From positions 1-42,989 of the forward strand of contig CALFCE010000207.1 in the NCBI GenBank assembly GCA_937951215.1: a DNA stretch of 42,989 bases, read 5' to 3'. This DNA is from an uncultured Granulosicoccaceae bacterium (GTDB lineage: Bacteria > Pseudomonadota > Gammaproteobacteria > Granulosicoccales > Granulosicoccaceae). The first letter of the stretch is position 1. Each line of letters starts with the position of its first letter. Positions 34,204 to 42,953 of this stretch are shown here, piece after piece. The translations under genes were made by a program, and so were the position numbers. The notes under the pieces were generated by a model that saw nothing but the letters and a program-made list of their open reading frames with translations, did not search any database and was not told the DNA's origin.

Positions 34204-35058
34204 CTAATCCCGCTTGACGACAGGCTTATTCAACGTCCAGTCAAATAAACCATTGTCACGCTCACGAGCAGCCTGCTGCCATCCCACCTGCTCGGCCCTC
34301 GCCTTAAAATTCAAACCTTCAGGGGAATGCCGCGACATGCCATCAAACACGGTGGCCAGGCGCTGAGTTTGATTGATCTTCTCTTCCACCGCGGCGTTGA
34401 TAACCATCTTTTGCATGGCCAGCTGGTTAACAGGAACCGTTGCCATACGCGAGGCCAGCGCTTCTACTTCTTCATCCAGCTTTTCATCCGCGACCGACTT
34501 CATGACCAGCCCCATTGCGGCAGCTTCGACGCCCGTGATCTTGTCACCGGTAAACATCATGCGTTTTGCCTGCTCGGGCCCGAGCCGATGTACCCACATG
34601 GCAGTCGTTGGACAACCCCAGATCCGGCTTGGCATGTATCCAATTTGTGCAGTATCGGCCATGATGGTGAGGTCGGCGCACAAAGCTATATCAGAACCCC
34701 CTGCCACCGCAAAGCCATGGACCTTGCAAATAACAGGTTTCATTGCGCGGAACAGCGACATAAATGCCTGCGTATTGGCCCACATAAACTGGTAATCCTG
34801 CATCGGATCCCAAGGCATTTCCTGCACCACCGGATTGGCACCACTGCCTGCAGCATAATGCGAAAGATCATAACCAGCGCAAAAAGCCCTGCCGGAACCT
34901 GCCAAAACCATCACATGGATTGATTTATCTGAGTCTGCCTGAGCTACCGCATCCGCAAGCTCCCTTGGCAGATCATCGTCAATCGCGTTTAAAACCTCAG
35001 GCCGGTTTAGTGTGATGCGGGCAATTCGGCCATCTTTTTCCAACAGTACTTTGGGCAT
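34204..35058 (-). CDS. Enoyl-CoA hydratase/isomerase (crotonase family)
   Basis: 284 residues. Crotonase motifs: ITLNRPEVLNAIDDDLPREL, the first oxyanion segment SGRAFCAGYDLSHY, the second KVHGFAVAGGSDIALCADLT, and PSRIWGCPTTAMWVHRLGP. Of the two usual catalytic acids, the position after the second oxyanion loop region here holds IWG..., so the reaction (hydration, isomerisation or another crotonase step) cannot be fixed. The C-terminal helical region is longer than in FadB-type single domains. Probably acts on a carboxylic acyl-CoA in the cytoplasm. Convergent with DUF417 and divergent from the barrel lipoprotein. Confidence 0.88.
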   Translation of the reverse strand: MPKVLLEKDGRIARITLNRPEVLNAIDDDLPRELADAVAQADSDKSIHVMVLAGSGRAFCAGYDLSHYAAGSGANPVVQEMPWDPMQDYQFMWANTQAFMSLFRAMKPVICKVHGFAVAGGSDIALCADLTIMADTAQIGYMPSRIWGCPTTAMWVHRLGPEQAKRMMFTGDKITGVEAAAMGLVMKSVADEKLDEEVEALASRMATVPVNQLAMQKMVINAAVEEKINQTQRLATVFDGMSRHSPEGLNFKARAEQVGWQQAARERDNGLFDWTLNKPVVKRD

Positions 35059-35259
35059 TGTTATTCCGGTTTACACACAAGGAGCTACCTCAACTTACGG
35101 TCATTGTTCGTAAAAGCGATAATATTATATGATTACTCAAATACTTGTAGCGACAGACAGTATGGCCACAGCGTCTTTAAGATGACGCCCCTTATTGTGC
35201 CGTGTATACCCCAGGCCCTCGCAAGTCCTTCCATTTTTTCCCGACACCTATTTTCCCGG

Positions 35260-36450
35260 ATGAACAAACTCACTACGAACAGCAGCTTTTGCTCAATATC
35301 GCTTGCTTTGCATAGCAAGCGACTGCAATGGTTGCTCGCCGCCGTCATCTGCAGCCTGCTTGCAACGGGTTGTGGAACCCCATCTGGTGGTGGAGGCCAA
35401 ACTGTTGGCAGCGATCCCTCAATTGATCCCGGCGTCGAGCCTAATACCCCGGCACAGGGCGGTGGCGATCAAGCTGTTACCGTAGTACAAACCGTTGATC
35501 AGGATCTGGACAAGGCGGTAGACAAGATAAAAGACAGGGATACCAACCTGCCACAGAGAGGCGTGTTCTTCTCTGTCGGAATACGCAACCTTGAACGAGT
35601 TGGACGTGAGGAAGAAGGTATTGCCGGGAATGACAGTGATATCACCAATCTCTCGTTCGGCTATGATCAAATCATAGGTGAATCATGGATACTGGGCGCT
35701 TTGGTTGATCTGTCGAAGCGCGAACAATCCAGCAATGCCGAATCTGAAAGCCTCTCTGGCGGATCAGTTTCAAGCGACACGGGTACTCTGTTTCTGTTCG
35801 CCAGTGCAGACTTGAATTCATCGTATAGCTTGACCGGCTATGTCGGCCTGGGCAAGACAGACTCATCCACCTCACGCACCGTAAGTGATGGTGTATTTAA
35901 CCCCGGAGTAGTGACTGTTGATCCGTTAGTCACAGTCGCGGGTGAGGTTTCCGGCAATAGTGAAAATAATATTGTACTGGCTGGTATCTCTATCCAGCGC
36001 CAGTTCTTCGCAGGCACCGGAAACCGGTTTTTCCTGCGTGCAGATGCAGACTTCTCCAGCATCGATACAGATGCCTTCACTGAAACAGGTTCAACAAATA
36101 CAGAAATTGCATTCGACAAACACACGCAGGAAAAAAGACTGTTCACGCTCGGCGCAGGTTACAGCCGCACGTTCAGCAGCTCGGTTGGTGTTGTTGTACC
36201 CACCTTTACTGTCTCCTTTCTTCGCGACGATCCTGACGACGAAGCTATCACGGCCACAGTTGTTGCAAGACCGGATATCACCGATGACATTGAGCTTCCA
36301 CCCACAGATGAAAGCTATGGCAAGTTTGATTTTGATATCGTCCTGGTCAGACCGAGAGGATTTCAATATTTCGCCAATGCATTTTCGTACTTTGCTAACG
36401 ACTTTGAGGAGTCAGCAGGCCTCAGCTTGGGTGCACGGCTGGAATTTTAA
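35260..36450 (+). CDS. Lipoprotein with an autotransporter-like outer-membrane beta-barrel
   Basis: 396 residues from ATG 35260. A basic start and a hydrophobic stretch (LQWLLAAVICSLLATGC) end in a lipobox-like A-T-G-C. A Gly/Pro/Gln linker and a short helical segment (TVDQDLDKAVDKIKDRD) come next. From about residue 105 there are alternating amphipathic strands with SVGIRNLERV, LSFGYDQIIGESWILGALV, YSLTGYVGLGKTD and FTLGAGYSRTFSSSVGVVVP. The protein ends SLGARLEF, a typical barrel terminus with final Phe. There is no large passenger. It resembles an autotransporter-domain protein but with a lipid-type signal, which is unusual. The triple-RidA gene starts 6 nt downstream. Confidence 0.72.
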   Translation: MNKLTTNSSFCSISLALHSKRLQWLLAAVICSLLATGCGTPSGGGGQTVGSDPSIDPGVEPNTPAQGGGDQAVTVVQTVDQDLDKAVDKIKDRDTNLPQRGVFFSVGIRNLERVGREEEGIAGNDSDITNLSFGYDQIIGESWILGALVDLSKREQSSNAESESLSGGSVSSDTGTLFLFASADLNSSYSLTGYVGLGKTDSSTSRTVSDGVFNPGVVTVDPLVTVAGEVSGNSENNIVLAGISIQRQFFAGTGNRFFLRADADFSSIDTDAFTETGSTNTEIAFDKHTQEKRLFTLGAGYSRTFSSSVGVVVPTFTVSFLRDDPDDEAITATVVARPDITDDIELPPTDESYGKFDFDIVLVRPRGFQYFANAFSYFANDFEESAGLSLGARLEF

Positions 36451-36456
36451 GCTGCC

Positions 36457-37716
36457 ATGAATCCAAAAACCCATAGCTGGCCGGAGGGTCACTGGAGCTG
36501 GCCCGTCGATCTTTCGCACTATCATGGTGTAAAACGAGGTGGCCTTATATTCACGGGTGGTCAAGCTGACCTTGATCACCAAGGTAGTGTGATCAACCCG
36601 GGTGACCTTGTAACGCAAACCCGCAATGTCCTGCATCATGTACAGAGCATCCTGATGGATCTGGACGCCACTCTCGATGATCTGGTGAAACTGGTGATCT
36701 ATTTTACCGGTGACGCATCGGATGAATTACAAATACTGGAGCTGATTGCCAACCAACTTGCCAGTGAGACAAAGCCCGCCGTTTCCACGATTTGTCTTCC
36801 AGAGCTTTGCTATCCGGGGATGCGAATCGAGCTGGAAGGAGTTGCTATCGATCCCACTCATCGTACATCCGACAACCCGGTTTACAAACGGGGTATGGAC
36901 CTCCCCGCACTTCAAAACCAGTACTCTCATGCGGTGCGTTGCAATGATTTGATCTTCACCAGCGATGTTTCGTCCATCGACTGTGACGGCAAACTACAGT
37001 CGCCTGGAGATCTCACTGTTCAAACCACGATTATGATGGAACAGCTGAACAGAACGCTGGCCTTGTTTGATGCGGACGTTGGCGATGTATTGAAACTGAA
37101 TGTTTTTTATCTGGGTGATGGTACTGCCGAGAATTGGGAAAAACCTGCGGCAATACGTGCAGGTTTTTTCGAAAAGCCCGGCCCTGCCGCAACCGGTATG
37201 ACTGTCGGGCAATTTGCCACTCCGGGTTTGATGACCAAGATTGCAGTCACCGCAGCACTACCCTCGGCGGAATCAAAAACGCAACAACCCCCAATCCGCT
37301 ATTCATGGCCCGACGGACACTGGAACTGGCCCCATCCCCTACCTTACCAACACGGTAATCGCCACGGACAGGTTATTCACTTGGGTGGGCAGGTTGCGCT
37401 AGACAGTCAGGCTAATGTTTTGCACCCGGATAATATCGTTGAACAGACCAGAATTGCCTTATCCAACATACAGACTTTGTTGGTCGATCTTGGCGCTACC
37501 ATGGATGATGTGGTGAAGGTCACCACGTTCTATCAAGGTAACGCCTCGGCGGATGGATTACACAAGAACTTGCTGATTCGTTCAGAAGCCTTTACCAAGC
37601 CGGGACCGGCGACATCCGGCATTCCGGTACCGTATTTGGTGTACGAGTCAATGGTGATTGAAATCGAAGTTATCGCTATTGTCGATGAACTACCGCTAGA
37701 AAGCGTTAATCAATAA
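36457..37716 (+). CDS. Triple-domain RidA/YjgF-family protein
   Basis: 419 residues, about three times the normal RidA length. Domain 1 (1-133) and domain 3 (about 280-413) both open with SWP(E/D)GHW(S/N)WP and share the blocks GGQ(A/V)xLD, QTR, DLxAT and DD(L/V)VK, so one is a duplicate of the other. Domain 2 (about 137-272) is more diverged. Where canonical RidA has the catalytic Arg, the three domains have V (PAVST), A (PAATG) and T (PATSG). All three thus belong to non-arginine types. RidA is normally a homotrimer, so this chain may fold as a one-chain trimer. The ATG follows the barrel lipoprotein stop by 6 nt. Confidence 0.88.
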   Translation: MNPKTHSWPEGHWSWPVDLSHYHGVKRGGLIFTGGQADLDHQGSVINPGDLVTQTRNVLHHVQSILMDLDATLDDLVKLVIYFTGDASDELQILELIANQLASETKPAVSTICLPELCYPGMRIELEGVAIDPTHRTSDNPVYKRGMDLPALQNQYSHAVRCNDLIFTSDVSSIDCDGKLQSPGDLTVQTTIMMEQLNRTLALFDADVGDVLKLNVFYLGDGTAENWEKPAAIRAGFFEKPGPAATGMTVGQFATPGLMTKIAVTAALPSAESKTQQPPIRYSWPDGHWNWPHPLPYQHGNRHGQVIHLGGQVALDSQANVLHPDNIVEQTRIALSNIQTLLVDLGATMDDVVKVTTFYQGNASADGLHKNLLIRSEAFTKPGPATSGIPVPYLVYESMVIEIEVIAIVDELPLESVNQ

Positions 37717-37894
37717 GTTTTCCATCCGCATCAAAAAACGGATGCGGCCCGTCAAAACTTCCGATAAAGCTCAGATGACTGACCAGATCGTTGCCATCGC
37801 ACCACTGATGTAACTGAACGCAGGGTGGCCAATTCGATGAGCCCAAGATAATACGATGGGCGATACTATGCAGATTTATCCATATAGGCAGCAC
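37706..37894 (-). CDS. Possible small ORF overlapping the 3' end of the kinase gene
   Basis: Up to 62 codons from GTG 37894, in a different frame from the kinase, continuing 160 bp past its stop. The sequence RIILGSSNWPPCVQLHQWCD and HPFFDADGKLID looks protein-like and codon use is ordinary, but no family is recognised and no independent ribosome site is evident. It spans most of the gap to the triple-RidA gene and crosses the hairpin CCGCATC (37726-37732)/GATGCGG (37741-37747). Alternatives are a decayed gene or chance. Confidence 0.28.
   Translation of the reverse strand: MLPIWINLHSIAHRIILGSSNWPPCVQLHQWCDGNDLVSHLSFIGSFDGPHPFFDADGKLID
37726..37747. terminator. Hairpin after the triple-RidA gene
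   Basis: CCGCATC (37726-37732) and GATGCGG (37741-37747), a 7-bp GC-rich stem with loop aaaaaacg, 9 bp after the triple-RidA stop codon. On the minus strand the stem would end transcription coming from the kinase. No T-tract follows on the plus strand. Confidence 0.4.
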
Positions 37895-38891
37895 AATAGT
37901 TTTCTGCTCTATCGATCATCACCGGGGTCAGCTCAACGGCCGATTCGGTTTGGCTGCGCGTGTGAACCCAGCCGAGATAGGTCAGGCTACGTGCAGCCAT
38001 AAATAGATCAAACGTATCCAAATCTCGCTGTTGTAATGTGCGAACACTACGGTACCCCTCGAACAGGGCATGTTTAAGTGTCTCGAACAATGGCTCTTCA
38101 TCCAGCCAGTAAATCGCAGTGACCAACTCAAACATATGCCAACCAAAACCGGCATCATCAAAATCAATCAACTGTACGCTGCCATCACTTAGCATGACAT
38201 TTTCCGGCACCATGTCTGCGTGAATCAGACCAAAGTTATCGGGAGTCATGCCATATTCCTTCAAGTCGTTAGCAATGGCTGATTTTGCTTCAAGAAAAAG
38301 TTCTTTCTGACGGGCTGACAGATCCTTCAATTGCCAGAACTGCCCCCATAAGGGCTCATCGCCTACCAGGCCGTCAGTATCCCAGGCATGGCGCTTCATG
38401 GAATTTTGCAGCAGCCAGGCTGTTGTCAGCTTATGCAGTAGCCCGGCGGTTGATCCGATATTGAAAAACAGGTGAGCCGGATCGCGATCGTTAAATTCCA
38501 GTGGTTCGCCTACCGCCCCAAGCTCCTGCCCATCGAGCCAACTCAAAACATCGACCTGCCAGATACCGGGTACTCCATCAGCTTCGGCACCCACCAGCTT
38601 CATATCCCGGCTTGTCAGGACAGGTTCGGGTACTACCAGACCATTTGTTGCCAGCATCGCCATCCATTGCAATTCAGATTGCAGACTGTCATCGGAATGA
38701 TAACCTTGTCGATGTACGCGTAATGCGGCTTTAACATCTCCCGGAAGACGTACCTCAAACACTGCGTTTTCCCGATATTTAATCAGCCGAATAATTTTCG
38801 CATCTTGTCCCCAGTGAGCCAGGGCATTTTGCGCCAACACTTGTAAACGCGCTGATTGCTGATCTGCGGGCAAGGCAAAAAATTCGGTCAT
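37866..38891 (-). CDS. APH-fold small-molecule kinase (hydroxylysine/homoserine-kinase-like)
   Basis: 341 residues. The aminoglycoside-phosphotransferase fold is shown by the catalytic loop GLIHADMVPENVM (H224-x-D226...N231) and the metal-binding IDFDDAGFG (D243). The N-lobe has ENAVFEVRLPGDVKAALRVH with a candidate ATP-binding Arg in place of Lys. Such kinases phosphorylate hydroxyls of small amines, including choline, homoserine and 5-hydroxylysine. GAGG lies upstream of the ATG. It follows the class III PLP enzyme in the same unit with 44 nt between. In animals, hydroxylysine kinase works with an AGXT2L-type phospho-lyase, and the same pairing is suggested here. Confidence 0.88.
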   Translation of the reverse strand: MTEFFALPADQQSARLQVLAQNALAHWGQDAKIIRLIKYRENAVFEVRLPGDVKAALRVHRQGYHSDDSLQSELQWMAMLATNGLVVPEPVLTSRDMKLVGAEADGVPGIWQVDVLSWLDGQELGAVGEPLEFNDRDPAHLFFNIGSTAGLLHKLTTAWLLQNSMKRHAWDTDGLVGDEPLWGQFWQLKDLSARQKELFLEAKSAIANDLKEYGMTPDNFGLIHADMVPENVMLSDGSVQLIDFDDAGFGWHMFELVTAIYWLDEEPLFETLKHALFEGYRSVRTLQQRDLDTFDLFMAARSLTYLGWVHTRSQTESAVELTPVMIDRAENYCAAYMDKSA

Positions 38892-38935
38892 ATCTCTGCA
38901 TCCTCTATCACGTATTCAACCGGAACGTCCGGTAG

Positions 38936-40252
38936 TCAGATACCATCCAAAACATATTGCAGCTTGTCAAACAACAAATCGGCATTCGACTTTGAGAACG
39001 GCATCGGCGGGCGGATTTTCAACAGATTGTCTCTGCTACCGATGACCCCCATAATCACCCCTTCCTCCCGCATTCGGTTCATGACCTTTCTCGCTGTTAC
39101 AGAATCTGCAAGCTTGGTCTCACGGTCAGAAACGAATTCACCACCGAAGAACAGCCCTGATCCACGAATGTTTCCCAACGCAGCAAAACGTTCCTGTAGT
39201 TTCACAAGCCTGTTTCTGGAATACTCGCCAACCGTGGCTGCGTTGTTGATCAAGTCTTCATCGGAAATGACTGCAAGAGTTGCAAGCGCGGCAGCACAGG
39301 CGACAGGGTTCGCAGCAAATGTGTTGAAGTACATGCTGTTTTGGCGAAAGGTACTCATAATGTCCGCGCGAGTAACCACACCTGCTATCGGGTAACCATT
39401 CCCCATCGGTTTTCCCAATGTGACCAGATCAGGTAAAAAGCCGGTTGCTTGATGGCCCCACATCGCGGCGCCACAGCGACCGAACCCACTCTGAACTTCA
39501 TCCGCTATGATCATACCTCCGGCTGCATGCACGGCCTCTGTCAAACGTGAATTGAGATCAGCCGGTAGATCAGGAAAGCCCTCATTGGCAAATATCGGAC
39601 AAATTAAAAGTGCAGCCAAGCCATGACCCGCTTTCTGCAAAGCGGCAATAGATTCTTGCAGGTGATCGATAATTTGATCCCCCATCTGTTCAAGATCCGC
39701 GGCATCGGCCGGTAAGTGATAACTATCGGGTGCAGGGATGGTCTTGACATAAGAAGGTAAAGATTCGGCGTCAGAGAAGATCGTGCCCAACTCCATCACC
39801 AATTCAGTGTTCCCATGATAAGCATGATCGGTCACGATAATGCCCTGATTACCCGTTACCTGACGAGCCATACGAAGCGCCACATCGTTAGCCTCGGAAC
39901 CTGTGCAGGTATACAAGAGTGTATTGAGCGAGGGATCAAAAGTTGCTGTCAATCGCTCAGCGTAATCCAGCATATTGTCATGCAGATATCTGGAGTGCGT
40001 ATTCAACGTGGAAGTCTGCCGGCACACGGCCTCGACTACCTTTGGATGGCAGTGCCCAACATGAGCCACGTTGTTGTAGCAATCAAGATAACGCTGTCCA
40101 GCATGATCGTACAACCAGACCCCTTCCCCACGCACAAAGTTAACCGGCTCATCGTAGAAGGTGGGATTATTCGGGCCCAGCAGACGCTCCCGCCTGTCCA
40201 TCATGGCACGGGCGTGAGAGGACATTGGCTGCGATAAATCGGGGTTACTCAT
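38936..40252 (-). CDS. Class III PLP enzyme of the AGXT2L (amino-phosphate phospho-lyase/aminotransferase) type
   Basis: 438 residues. The segment RYLDCYNNVAHVGHCHPKVV and LNTHSRYLHDNMLDYAERLT closely resembles the ethanolamine-phosphate and phosphohydroxylysine phospho-lyases. PLP features: SEAND (phosphate), DHAYHGN, ADEVQSGFGR (Asp-Glu for the pyridine N) and the Schiff-base Lys in LGKPMGNGYP near residue 280. It may eliminate phosphate and ammonia from a phosphorylated hydroxy-amine, or act as a plain omega-aminotransferase. ATG 40252 is preferred; ATG 40267 is in frame. It is upstream of the kinase and divergent from the ABC importer. Confidence 0.88.
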   Translation of the reverse strand: MSNPDLSQPMSSHARAMMDRRERLLGPNNPTFYDEPVNFVRGEGVWLYDHAGQRYLDCYNNVAHVGHCHPKVVEAVCRQTSTLNTHSRYLHDNMLDYAERLTATFDPSLNTLLYTCTGSEANDVALRMARQVTGNQGIIVTDHAYHGNTELVMELGTIFSDAESLPSYVKTIPAPDSYHLPADAADLEQMGDQIIDHLQESIAALQKAGHGLAALLICPIFANEGFPDLPADLNSRLTEAVHAAGGMIIADEVQSGFGRCGAAMWGHQATGFLPDLVTLGKPMGNGYPIAGVVTRADIMSTFRQNSMYFNTFAANPVACAAALATLAVISDEDLINNAATVGEYSRNRLVKLQERFAALGNIRGSGLFFGGEFVSDRETKLADSVTARKVMNRMREEGVIMGVIGSRDNLLKIRPPMPFSKSNADLLFDKLQYVLDGI

Positions 40253-40476
40253 GCTTCTCACTACCATGCTTCAACCGGGATCTCGCTAAACTACATTAAA
40301 AAAGGCTTGGATGGTAATGCAGAGCCAATAGATATCAGCTTGTTTGCAGATTCAGTAGGTTGCACACAGTTCATCAGAACCGGGCCAGGAAATTTGCTCG
40401 ACAGCCCGAAAGCTAATAGTATCGAAGGGAGATAAACAACGACTGGCGGAACCTCGCCCGACTGGAGAAACCAACC

Positions 40477-41331
40477 ATGAAATTCCCTTCCATTGGCCTT
40501 ACCACCAGACGCTCCGGCTTTATCAGTGCCATACTCGCAGGCGTTGTGTTTGCCGCAAACACAAACCTCTATGCTGCCGATTGTGCTGCTGGCAAAACCC
40601 TGAAAGACGGTGTGCTGACTATTGCGACCGGCAACCCAGCCTATTACCCCTGGGTGATGGACAATGACCCTGCCTCCGGCAAAGGTTTTGAGGCAGCAGT
40701 GGCCTATGCAGTGGCCGAGCGAATGGGGTTTTCCAATGATAAAGTGGAATGGACATCAGCCTCATTTGATCAAGCCATTCAGCCCGGCACCAAGGATTTT
40801 GATATCAATTTGCAACAATTCTCCATCACCGAAGAGCGCGACAAGGTGGTCGATTTTTCCGCTCCCTATTATCTTGCCCCGATGGCCGTGCTGGTGCGAA
40901 AAGCGTCTGTCGACAATGGAGCCACTGCAACCATCGATTCTTTGAAAACCCTCAAATGGGGCGTTGATGCGAACACTACTGCATTGAAAATGCTTCAAGA
41001 GACCATCAAACCTGACAGCGACCCACTTCTTTATGATGACAACGTTAACGTAACCGAAGCGATGAAAGCCAACCAGATTGACGCGGCGATGTTTGATCTG
41101 CCTACTGCGTTATATCTGAGTGCCGTCGTACTCGAAGATGGTGCAGTGCTGGGGCAGTTCCCAGCCGATCGCACTGAAACCCCGGACCGGTTCGGCATGC
41201 TGATGGAAGAAGGCAGCGAGTTAAAAGCTTGTGTGGATGAAGCAGTCATCGGACTGACAGAGGACGGAACACTGGCAAATATCGAAGCTGAGTGGTTACA
41301 GGAAACAACCGGGGTTCCGTTAATCAAATAG
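40477..41331 (+). CDS. Periplasmic amino-acid-binding protein of an ABC importer
   Basis: 284 residues. The signal region runs to about residue 31 (SGFISAILAGVVFAANTNLYA, then ADCAAGK); an RR pair sits just before it but does not fit a Tat motif. The mature protein is a family-3 (polar amino acid) solute-binding protein: VLTIATGNPAYYPWVMDND, GKGFEAAVAYAVAERMG and QFSITEERDKVVDFSAPYY. GGAG lies 9 nt before the ATG. It feeds the permease and ATPase that follow. Ligand not predictable; context suggests a substrate of the neighbouring kinase/PLP pair. Confidence 0.92.
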   Translation: MKFPSIGLTTRRSGFISAILAGVVFAANTNLYAADCAAGKTLKDGVLTIATGNPAYYPWVMDNDPASGKGFEAAVAYAVAERMGFSNDKVEWTSASFDQAIQPGTKDFDINLQQFSITEERDKVVDFSAPYYLAPMAVLVRKASVDNGATATIDSLKTLKWGVDANTTALKMLQETIKPDSDPLLYDDNVNVTEAMKANQIDAAMFDLPTALYLSAVVLEDGAVLGQFPADRTETPDRFGMLMEEGSELKACVDEAVIGLTEDGTLANIEAEWLQETTGVPLIK

Positions 41332-41391
41332 CAATAATTCACCAGTACGACAAGTCACTTTTCTCTATGGATCACTAACACTCGCGCAACC

Positions 41392-42213
41392 ATGATAAAT
41401 CGCAGCGCAGAACGGGTTGCCTTTGACGAAAAGCAAAAAAGCAAGGGCGTGGCAGTTGCTGCGCTTAGTACCCTTGTTGTTCTGGCGGCACTGATAGTAC
41501 TGGTGCCGCTGGCACCGGGCTGGGACAAGGTTCAGAACAGTTTTTTCAATGGCGACATTCTGGTCTCGACCTTCCCGTCACTACTGAAGGCTTTTACGCT
41601 TGATATAGCGATCTTCCTCTGGTCTTTACCGGCTATTGCCATTCTGGGTTTGTTGCTTGCTCTGGCACGCGATCAAAAGTCGCCCGCGATGTTTCCGCTA
41701 CGCGCGGTGAGTATTCTATTTACCGATGTTTTTCGCGGTGTTCCTGTAATCCTGACAATCTTTCTGATTGGCTTTGGTATTCCGGGCCTGGGTTTACCAC
41801 GCCCATGGAACAGCCCTTATATCTGGGGCTCACTGGCACTGATACTGACCTACTCGGCCTATGTTGCCGAGATCATCCGAAGCGGCATAGAGTCTGTTCA
41901 CGCAAGTCAAAGAGCTGCTGGTCAATCTCTGGGCTTAAGCGATCGGGATACCATGCGCTACGTGGTATTGCCTCAGGCCTTGCGTCGTGTGGTACCCGCC
42001 AATATGAATATGCTGGTAGCCTTGCAAAAGGATGTCGCCTTGTTGTCCTTTATCGGCCCTGTCGAAATTCTGCGCCAGGCCGGTGTGCATAAATCGCTAC
42101 TGGCCAATTTCACGCCCTATGTCGGGGCAGCCATCATTTTCCTTTGCGTGACTGTGCCGGCAACCCGCTATGCGGACTACCTGCTAGCCAAACAACACCG
42201 GGAGCGTTCCTGA
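41392..42213 (+). CDS. Amino-acid ABC transporter permease (HisM/GlnP type)
   Basis: 273 residues, about five membrane segments after a cytoplasmic N-terminus: VAVAALSTLVVLAALIVLVP, FLWSLPAIAILGLLLALARD, FRGVPVILTIFLIGFGIPGL and further ones. The conserved cytoplasmic EAA-type loop (IESVHASQRAAGQSLGLSDR, then VVLPQALRRVVP) contacts the ATPase. A single permease suggests a homodimeric channel. Stop overlaps the ATPase start by 1 nt (TGATG), confirming an operon. Confidence 0.93.
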   Translation: MINRSAERVAFDEKQKSKGVAVAALSTLVVLAALIVLVPLAPGWDKVQNSFFNGDILVSTFPSLLKAFTLDIAIFLWSLPAIAILGLLLALARDQKSPAMFPLRAVSILFTDVFRGVPVILTIFLIGFGIPGLGLPRPWNSPYIWGSLALILTYSAYVAEIIRSGIESVHASQRAAGQSLGLSDRDTMRYVVLPQALRRVVPANMNMLVALQKDVALLSFIGPVEILRQAGVHKSLLANFTPYVGAAIIFLCVTVPATRYADYLLAKQHRERS

Positions 42214-42953
42214 TGGCGCTCGAGAAACTGCGCCTGGTTGATGTACACAAGGGCTTTGGTGATATCCCGGTTTTAAACGGGATTGATCTGTCCGTCTCCG
42301 AAGGAGAGATGGTTTGCCTGATTGGTTCTTCAGGCTCGGGTAAATCTACCTTGCTCAGATGTATCAATCTACTGGAACCTATCGATAACGGACAGATTCT
42401 GTTTAACAACATTGATATCTCCGAACCGGGCTTCAACCCGCAACCGGTCAGACAAAAAATTGGGCTGGTATTCCAGAGTTTTAACCTGTTCCCGCATATG
42501 ACCGCACTGCAAAACGTGATGCTCGCACCGCGTCGCGTGCACCGCCATCCAGCCCAACAAATCAAACAGTCAGCACAGGAATTATTCGAAAAATTCGGTC
42601 TGGAAGATCGTATGGAGCACTATCCTGATCAGCTCTCTGGTGGACAACAACAGCGTGTTGCTATTGTCAGGGCACTGGCGATGAACCCGCAGATCATGTT
42701 GTTTGATGAGGTCACCTCGGCACTGGACCCGGAATTGATCGAAGAGGTGCTGGATGTGTTGCGTCAGCTTCGCATGCAAGGTATGACCATGATTTTAGCC
42801 ACCCATGAAATCGGCTTTGCACGCGAGGCCGCAGATTCCGTGTGTATGCTTGATGATGGCAGGATTATCGAGACAGGTTCACCGGATAAAATATTCAGCG
42901 ATCCCACCGAGCCCAGAACGAGGCAGTTTTTATCTTCGGTGCTTAAACAATAG
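42213..42953 (+). CDS. Amino-acid ABC transporter ATP-binding protein (GlnQ type)
   Basis: 246 residues. Walker A GSSGSGKST, the Q-loop in GLVFQSFNLFPHMTALQNVM, signature LSGGQQQR, Walker B IMLFDEVTSALDPE and the switch His in ILATHEIGFAREAADSVC. It powers polar amino-acid uptake with the preceding permease and binding protein. GGGAG ends about 10 nt before the ATG. The window ends 36 bp later, so further operon genes cannot be excluded. Confidence 0.95.
   Translation: MALEKLRLVDVHKGFGDIPVLNGIDLSVSEGEMVCLIGSSGSGKSTLLRCINLLEPIDNGQILFNNIDISEPGFNPQPVRQKIGLVFQSFNLFPHMTALQNVMLAPRRVHRHPAQQIKQSAQELFEKFGLEDRMEHYPDQLSGGQQQRVAIVRALAMNPQIMLFDEVTSALDPELIEEVLDVLRQLRMQGMTMILATHEIGFAREAADSVCMLDDGRIIETGSPDKIFSDPTEPRTRQFLSSVLKQ

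Follow-up and report, generated by a model that had tools for sequence, protein, structure and literature searches.

A predicted single-chain Rid pseudo-trimer without the catalytic arginine in an uncultured Granulosicoccaceae bacterium

Introduction

In this study, a stretch of 42,989 nucleotides from an uncultured Granulosicoccaceae bacterium (contig CALFCE010000207.1; hereafter the window) was analysed, with emphasis on a gene in which three Rid domains are fused. We consider it reasonably probable (about 0.6) that the product is a single-chain Rid pseudo-trimer with diverged clefts, namely, a putative enzyme without the catalytic arginine that stands alone genetically and has a beta-barrel gene as an accidental neighbour. 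Fusion into one chain frees each site of a symmetric trimeric enzyme to evolve on its own. In the triple-Rid family, one cleft has apparently been retained and another lost, which would make it a convenient system for studying how homotrimers turn into asymmetric enzymes. The family also bears on the role of Rid proteins that lack the arginine. The domain-specific residue pattern across 32 homologues is the new element of this analysis, and no description of an Arg-less, Trp-rich triple-Rid family was found in the open-licence literature searched.

Domain organisation of the triple-Rid protein

The two open reading frames on which the original prediction was built are real, lie 6 nt apart and are both encoded on the + strand. 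The features are as follows:

35260..36450, + strand: autotransporter-type beta-barrel with a lipobox-like signal peptide, starting at an in-frame ATG inside the mechanical open reading frame 35104-36450 (Pfam)
36457..37716, + strand: triple-Rid protein of 419 aa with PF01042 three times (open reading frame; Pfam 9.3e-47; AlphaFold pLDDT 90.9, pTM 0.91)
36457..36849, + strand: domain 1 (aa 1-131), with N-terminal SWPEGHWSWP; E125 is the Glu120 equivalent, and Val occupies the Arg105 position
36904..37257, + strand: domain 2 (about aa 150-267); Asp170, Lys261 and Ala245 are the equivalents of Gly31, Glu120 and Arg105, respectively
37300..37680, + strand: domain 3 (about aa 282-408), with SWPDGHWNWP; Tyr297, Gly310 and Glu402 are invariant, and Thr occupies the Arg105 position

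PF01042 was matched in three stretches of the protein (158.4 bits against a cut-off of 27.3), thereby placing it in the Rid (YjgF/YER057c/UK114) superfamily and bearing out the reading of three Rid domains in one chain. The NCBIfam model TIGR00004 scored 112 bits on the whole protein against a cut-off of 106, a sum of three weak domains of 34-47 bits each. No signal peptide was seen by eye. The Trp-rich motif is found ahead of domains 1 and 3 and has no copy in domain 2; the form SWPxGHWxWP, put forward as common to domains 1 and 3, holds for this protein but not for most homologues, in which the domain-3 copy ends in ...DWT rather than ...WP.

Other genes were also recorded. The window contains a single-domain Rid gene (2524-2877, + strand) with Met at the Arg105 position. 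Contig C172 of the same genome (L006, L061) carries a 498-aa frame in which an aldo/keto reductase (PF00248, 5e-54) is fused with a Rid domain at the C-terminus, and this fusion shares the contig with a single-domain Rid gene. At positions 37866-40267 (- strand) and 40477-42953 (+ strand) of the window, the gene of an APH-family kinase adjoins that of a class-III PLP enzyme, and the SBP, permease and ATPase genes of an amino-acid-type ABC transporter come next. The PLP enzyme is nearest to the solved phospho-lyases 5g4i and 6tor, and the cluster looks like a system that takes up an amino alcohol and degrades it by way of the kinase and the phospho-lyase.

Distribution and residue conservation

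The triple Rid was present in 14 of the 48 genomes of the window's own family (Granulosicoccaceae), and a GTDB scan yielded 30 loci in Granulosicoccaceae, Ruegeria, Roseovarius, Hyphomicrobiales and other Proteobacteria. It was rare beyond, with 2/369 genomes in a class sample and 1/399 in a phylum sample (the window's own genome counted). Relatives were also detected on five rhizobial plasmid records, four at 27-29% identity and one at 39%; on two of these plasmids (L068, L070), aminotransferase, ABC transporter and alpha-hydroxy acid oxidase genes were seen near the triple Rid. Proteins with the complete three-domain layout thus occur in both Gammaproteobacteria and Alphaproteobacteria. Because the full-length homologues share the whole 419-aa architecture at 37-71% identity, the architecture, the motifs and the loss of the arginine are judged not to be due to chance.

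The homologue tree comprised three groups, that is, a main group of Granulosicoccaceae and Roseobacter-group sequences, a second group (about 40% identity) and a distant group from rhizobial plasmids; the nearest neighbour of the window's protein was a sequence from the same genus (L042). In the domain tree, all triple-Rid domains clustered to the exclusion of the eight single Rid domains taken from the same genome (support 0.88), with domain 1 as a single group (0.98), domain 2 as a single group (0.75) and domain 3 not resolved as one group.

Residues were counted in 32 triple-Rid homologues (96 domains), with positions matched to RidA by motif and by hand. The catalytic Arg105 was found in 0/96 domains, so the protein lacks the arginine of the RidA subfamily, and the claim that no domain carries it (V109, A245 and T386 in the window) extends to every domain of the 32 homologues. 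The position is occupied by Val or Ile in domain 1, by Ala, Pro or Ser in domain 2 and mostly by Thr in domain 3. Fully invariant columns numbered 7 in domain 1, 6 in domain 2 and 16 in domain 3. The Tyr17 equivalent is invariant solely in domain 3 (Tyr297, 32/32), and the Glu120 equivalent is Glu402 in all 32 sequences in domain 3, E125 in 28/32 in domain 1, and in domain 2 its place is taken by Lys or Arg in 31 of the 32 sequences (K261). As judged from these alignments, domain 3 is the only domain in which both equivalents are invariant. Gly310 of domain 3 is likewise found in 32/32, as is each of W284, P285, W289 and W291, which make the Trp-rich motif ahead of domain 3 invariant. The Gly31 equivalent of domain 2 is Asp or Glu in the main group, R375 of domain 3 is present in 29/32, and R234 of domain 2 is also a conserved Arg.

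Predicted fold and interdomain clefts

The AlphaFold model, based on a 28-row alignment, had a mean pLDDT of 90.9 and a pTM of 0.91 over the whole chain, and the three domains are therefore predicted as one rigid body. The top Foldseek matches over the full length were the chorismatases 5a3k and 4bps (E about 1e-11, 374-377 aligned columns), and Rid monomers, which ranked below them, matched single domains only (target-normalised TM about 0.8-0.9). The Rid fold has single-chain relatives in the chorismatases. With the rigid-body model backed by a match of the whole length to such a natural one-chain fold, the pseudo-trimer has good support as a structural prediction. The three fused domains would then form the barrel for which normal Rid proteins need three separate subunits. 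The proposed covalent pseudo-trimer with unlike pockets is strengthened by the model, the fold match and the domain-specific conservation, but its novelty is lost, since the covalent-trimer idea is not new and was already attached to '3x-RidA', named in 2015 (PMC4433059).

In TdcF and AtRidA, one subunit supplies the Arg105 of a cleft and another its Glu120, and the interface between them is crossed by a Lys-Glu salt bridge (PMC1884159; PMC4960622). If the domains are arranged like the subunits of solved Rid trimers, every domain would turn its Arg-side to the Glu-side of the next in the order 2 to 3, 3 to 1 and 1 to 2. Under this order, the conserved K213 and K354 lie opposite E404 and E127, respectively, and Lys354 of domain 3 and Glu127 of domain 1 are lost jointly in the rhizobial clade. 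The order appears to fit better than the alternative one because the pairs K213/E404 and K354/E127 are kept and K354 and E127 disappear together; one of the three expected salt-bridge pairs, K/R78-A263, is mismatched in the main clade.

The interdomain clefts of the triple Rid would have diverged from one another. The domain 2/3 cleft is probably the main functional site, because both of its proposed walls are invariant, with Lys213, Gly242, Pro243 and Thr246 on one side and Tyr297, Gly310 and Glu402 on the other; the loop carrying Trp284, Trp289 and Trp291 may form its lid. The domain 1/2 cleft would be degenerate in the window's clade, where Gly31 is changed to Asp and Glu120 to Lys. Any side chain at the Gly31 position of TdcF would clash with Glu120 (PMC1884159). 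The pattern as a whole suggests that one cleft, between domains 2 and 3, is dominant and that another has degenerated.

Possible function

A change of the arginine in RidA nearly abolishes imine hydrolysis, and the Arg-less Rid7 is inactive in the same assay (PMC4433059). Because the catalytic Arg is absent everywhere, the triple Rid is probably not a canonical imine deaminase, and it is favoured as a soluble small-molecule enzyme, both the catalytic role and the location being putative. A more specific form of this reading, in which the family would be a fused, specialised Rid trimer of marine and soil Proteobacteria with one active cleft and a Trp cage for a nitrogen-containing or quaternary-ammonium metabolite, is tentative and, taken whole, rather unlikely.

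It is unlikely that the protein acts as a broad-range imine/enamine deaminase in which R375 and R234 replace Arg105, perhaps in nitrogen catabolism with the next-door kinase and phospho-lyase. Such an activity would agree with the retention of both the Tyr17 and the Glu120 equivalent in domain 3, the frequent R375, the neighbouring APH-family kinase and phospho-lyase-like class-III PLP enzyme, and the aminotransferases and amino-acid transporters near the rhizobial relatives, taken as bare occurrences. However, Arg105 is missing in all domains, as in the inactive Rid7 (PMC4433059); relatives of the phospho-lyase near the triple Rid were distant class-III enzymes (26-27%) at 2/35 loci, and kinase relatives were found at 0/35.

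A non-catalytic ligand-binding or regulatory protein, to which the loss of Arg in all domains and the degenerate domain 1/2 cleft would point, is distinctly unlikely, given that the polar Tyr297 and Glu402 are invariant in very divergent homologues, a pattern that fits catalysis or very specific binding.

Gene neighbourhood

The upstream open reading frame contains an autotransporter beta-domain (PF03797, 1.9e-17). Its signal peptide closes with LLATGC, which resembles a lipobox weakly, and its last residue is Phe. A barrel homologue near the triple Rid was found by tblastn at 0 of the 35 homologous loci, both same-genus relatives included, in flanks of up to 6 kb (9 kb for plasmids, shorter at contig ends). 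The barrel gene was present in 3 of the 48 family genomes, and the other two (G004, G042) have the triple Rid on a different contig. Neighbour-gene clustering of the triple-Rid loci yielded no conserved partner of any kind, and recurrent neighbours were seen solely among close relatives, namely, an OYE-type gene (L022, L024) and histidine-biosynthesis genes in Ruegeria. At the same-genus loci, an arginase-family gene lies upstream and MTTB downstream of the triple Rid in L042, and an RCC1-repeat gene lies upstream in L028. Nitrogen-metabolism genes near triple-Rid loci included glutamine synthetase, arginase, MTTB, AsnC and SBP_bac_3, recorded as bare occurrences and given no weight here.

The more surprising half of the original prediction was the link to the barrel, and this half fails. 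A barrel lipoprotein serving as the operon partner of the triple Rid, for example in the uptake and breakdown of a surface-acquired compound, is very unlikely. The 6-nt gap on one strand and the triple Rid carried by both other family genomes with the barrel argue for it, as does, weakly, the lack of a sigma-70-like site in the region; no such site was found anywhere in 34900-38000, upstream of the barrel included, and the scan is thus uninformative. Similarly tight gaps to unrelated upstream genes occur elsewhere (DUF2207, 2 nt; P450, overlap; OYE-type oxidoreductase, 23-24 nt), and co-occurrence in three genomes is too small to be read as a link. Because no barrel is found at the 35 loci and G004 and G042 have the two genes on separate contigs, the best reading of the adjacency, from synteny, is a chance arrangement peculiar to one genome, and the barrel was rejected as an operon or functional partner on the same grounds. 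The original prediction had named a gene pair conserved nowhere as evidence against itself, and no conservation of the Rid/barrel pair was found as far as the genome collections reach. Co-transcription of the two genes in this genome is possible from the 6-nt gap.

Of the two barrel homologues in the family, the one at L052 keeps a lipobox-like site. The homologue at L053:881-2278 has an apparently ordinary signal peptide and no lipobox, and for this reason the lipid anchor may not be general in the barrel family.

Comparison with known Rid systems

Chorismatase is listed among the Rid-family activities (PMC4433059). A chorismatase-like activity towards chorismate or a different aromatic precursor, although suggested by the top full-length structural matches, is highly improbable for the triple Rid, since the identity is 12-14%, a profile search gave E values of 0.72-2.1, and the same match would be expected from any one-chain Rid trimer. 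Membership of the FkbO/Hyg5-type chorismatases was rejected on sequence grounds, the profile match being insignificant and covering one 35-residue stretch, and similarity of fold only is left. Like the triple Rid, the chorismatases are single chains (about 335 aa), and the model agrees with their fold from end to end, but they differ in the low identity, in the lack of a significant profile match and in their known substrate, chorismate.

Single-domain Rid proteins (RidA/TdcF/AmnE, PF01042, TIGR00004) share the fold of each domain and the Gly31, Tyr17 and Glu120 equivalents of domain 3, whereas they are homotrimers of identical subunits, and RidA and Rid1-3 have Arg105. Rid4-Rid7 also lack Arg105 and keep Glu120; they are separate from 3x-RidA (Niehaus et al. 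2015, PMC4433059), and their Arg position is Trp or variable, in contrast to Val/Ile, Ala/Pro and Thr here.

The closest precedent is '3x-RidA', a term for three tandem fused Rid domains described as 'presumably covalently linked trimer units' (Niehaus et al. 2015, PMC4433059) and not met elsewhere in the open-licence literature searched. The protein of the window shares with 3x-RidA (e.g. EF_0115 of Enterococcus faecalis; PMC4433059) the three fused Rid domains and the proposed covalent trimer. As compared by description, 3x-RidA was placed in the mostly Arg-bearing RidA subfamily (PMC4433059), whereas no domain has the Arg here, and the Trp-rich motif before domains 1 and 3 sets the present triple Rid apart from 3x-RidA and EF_0115 by description only.
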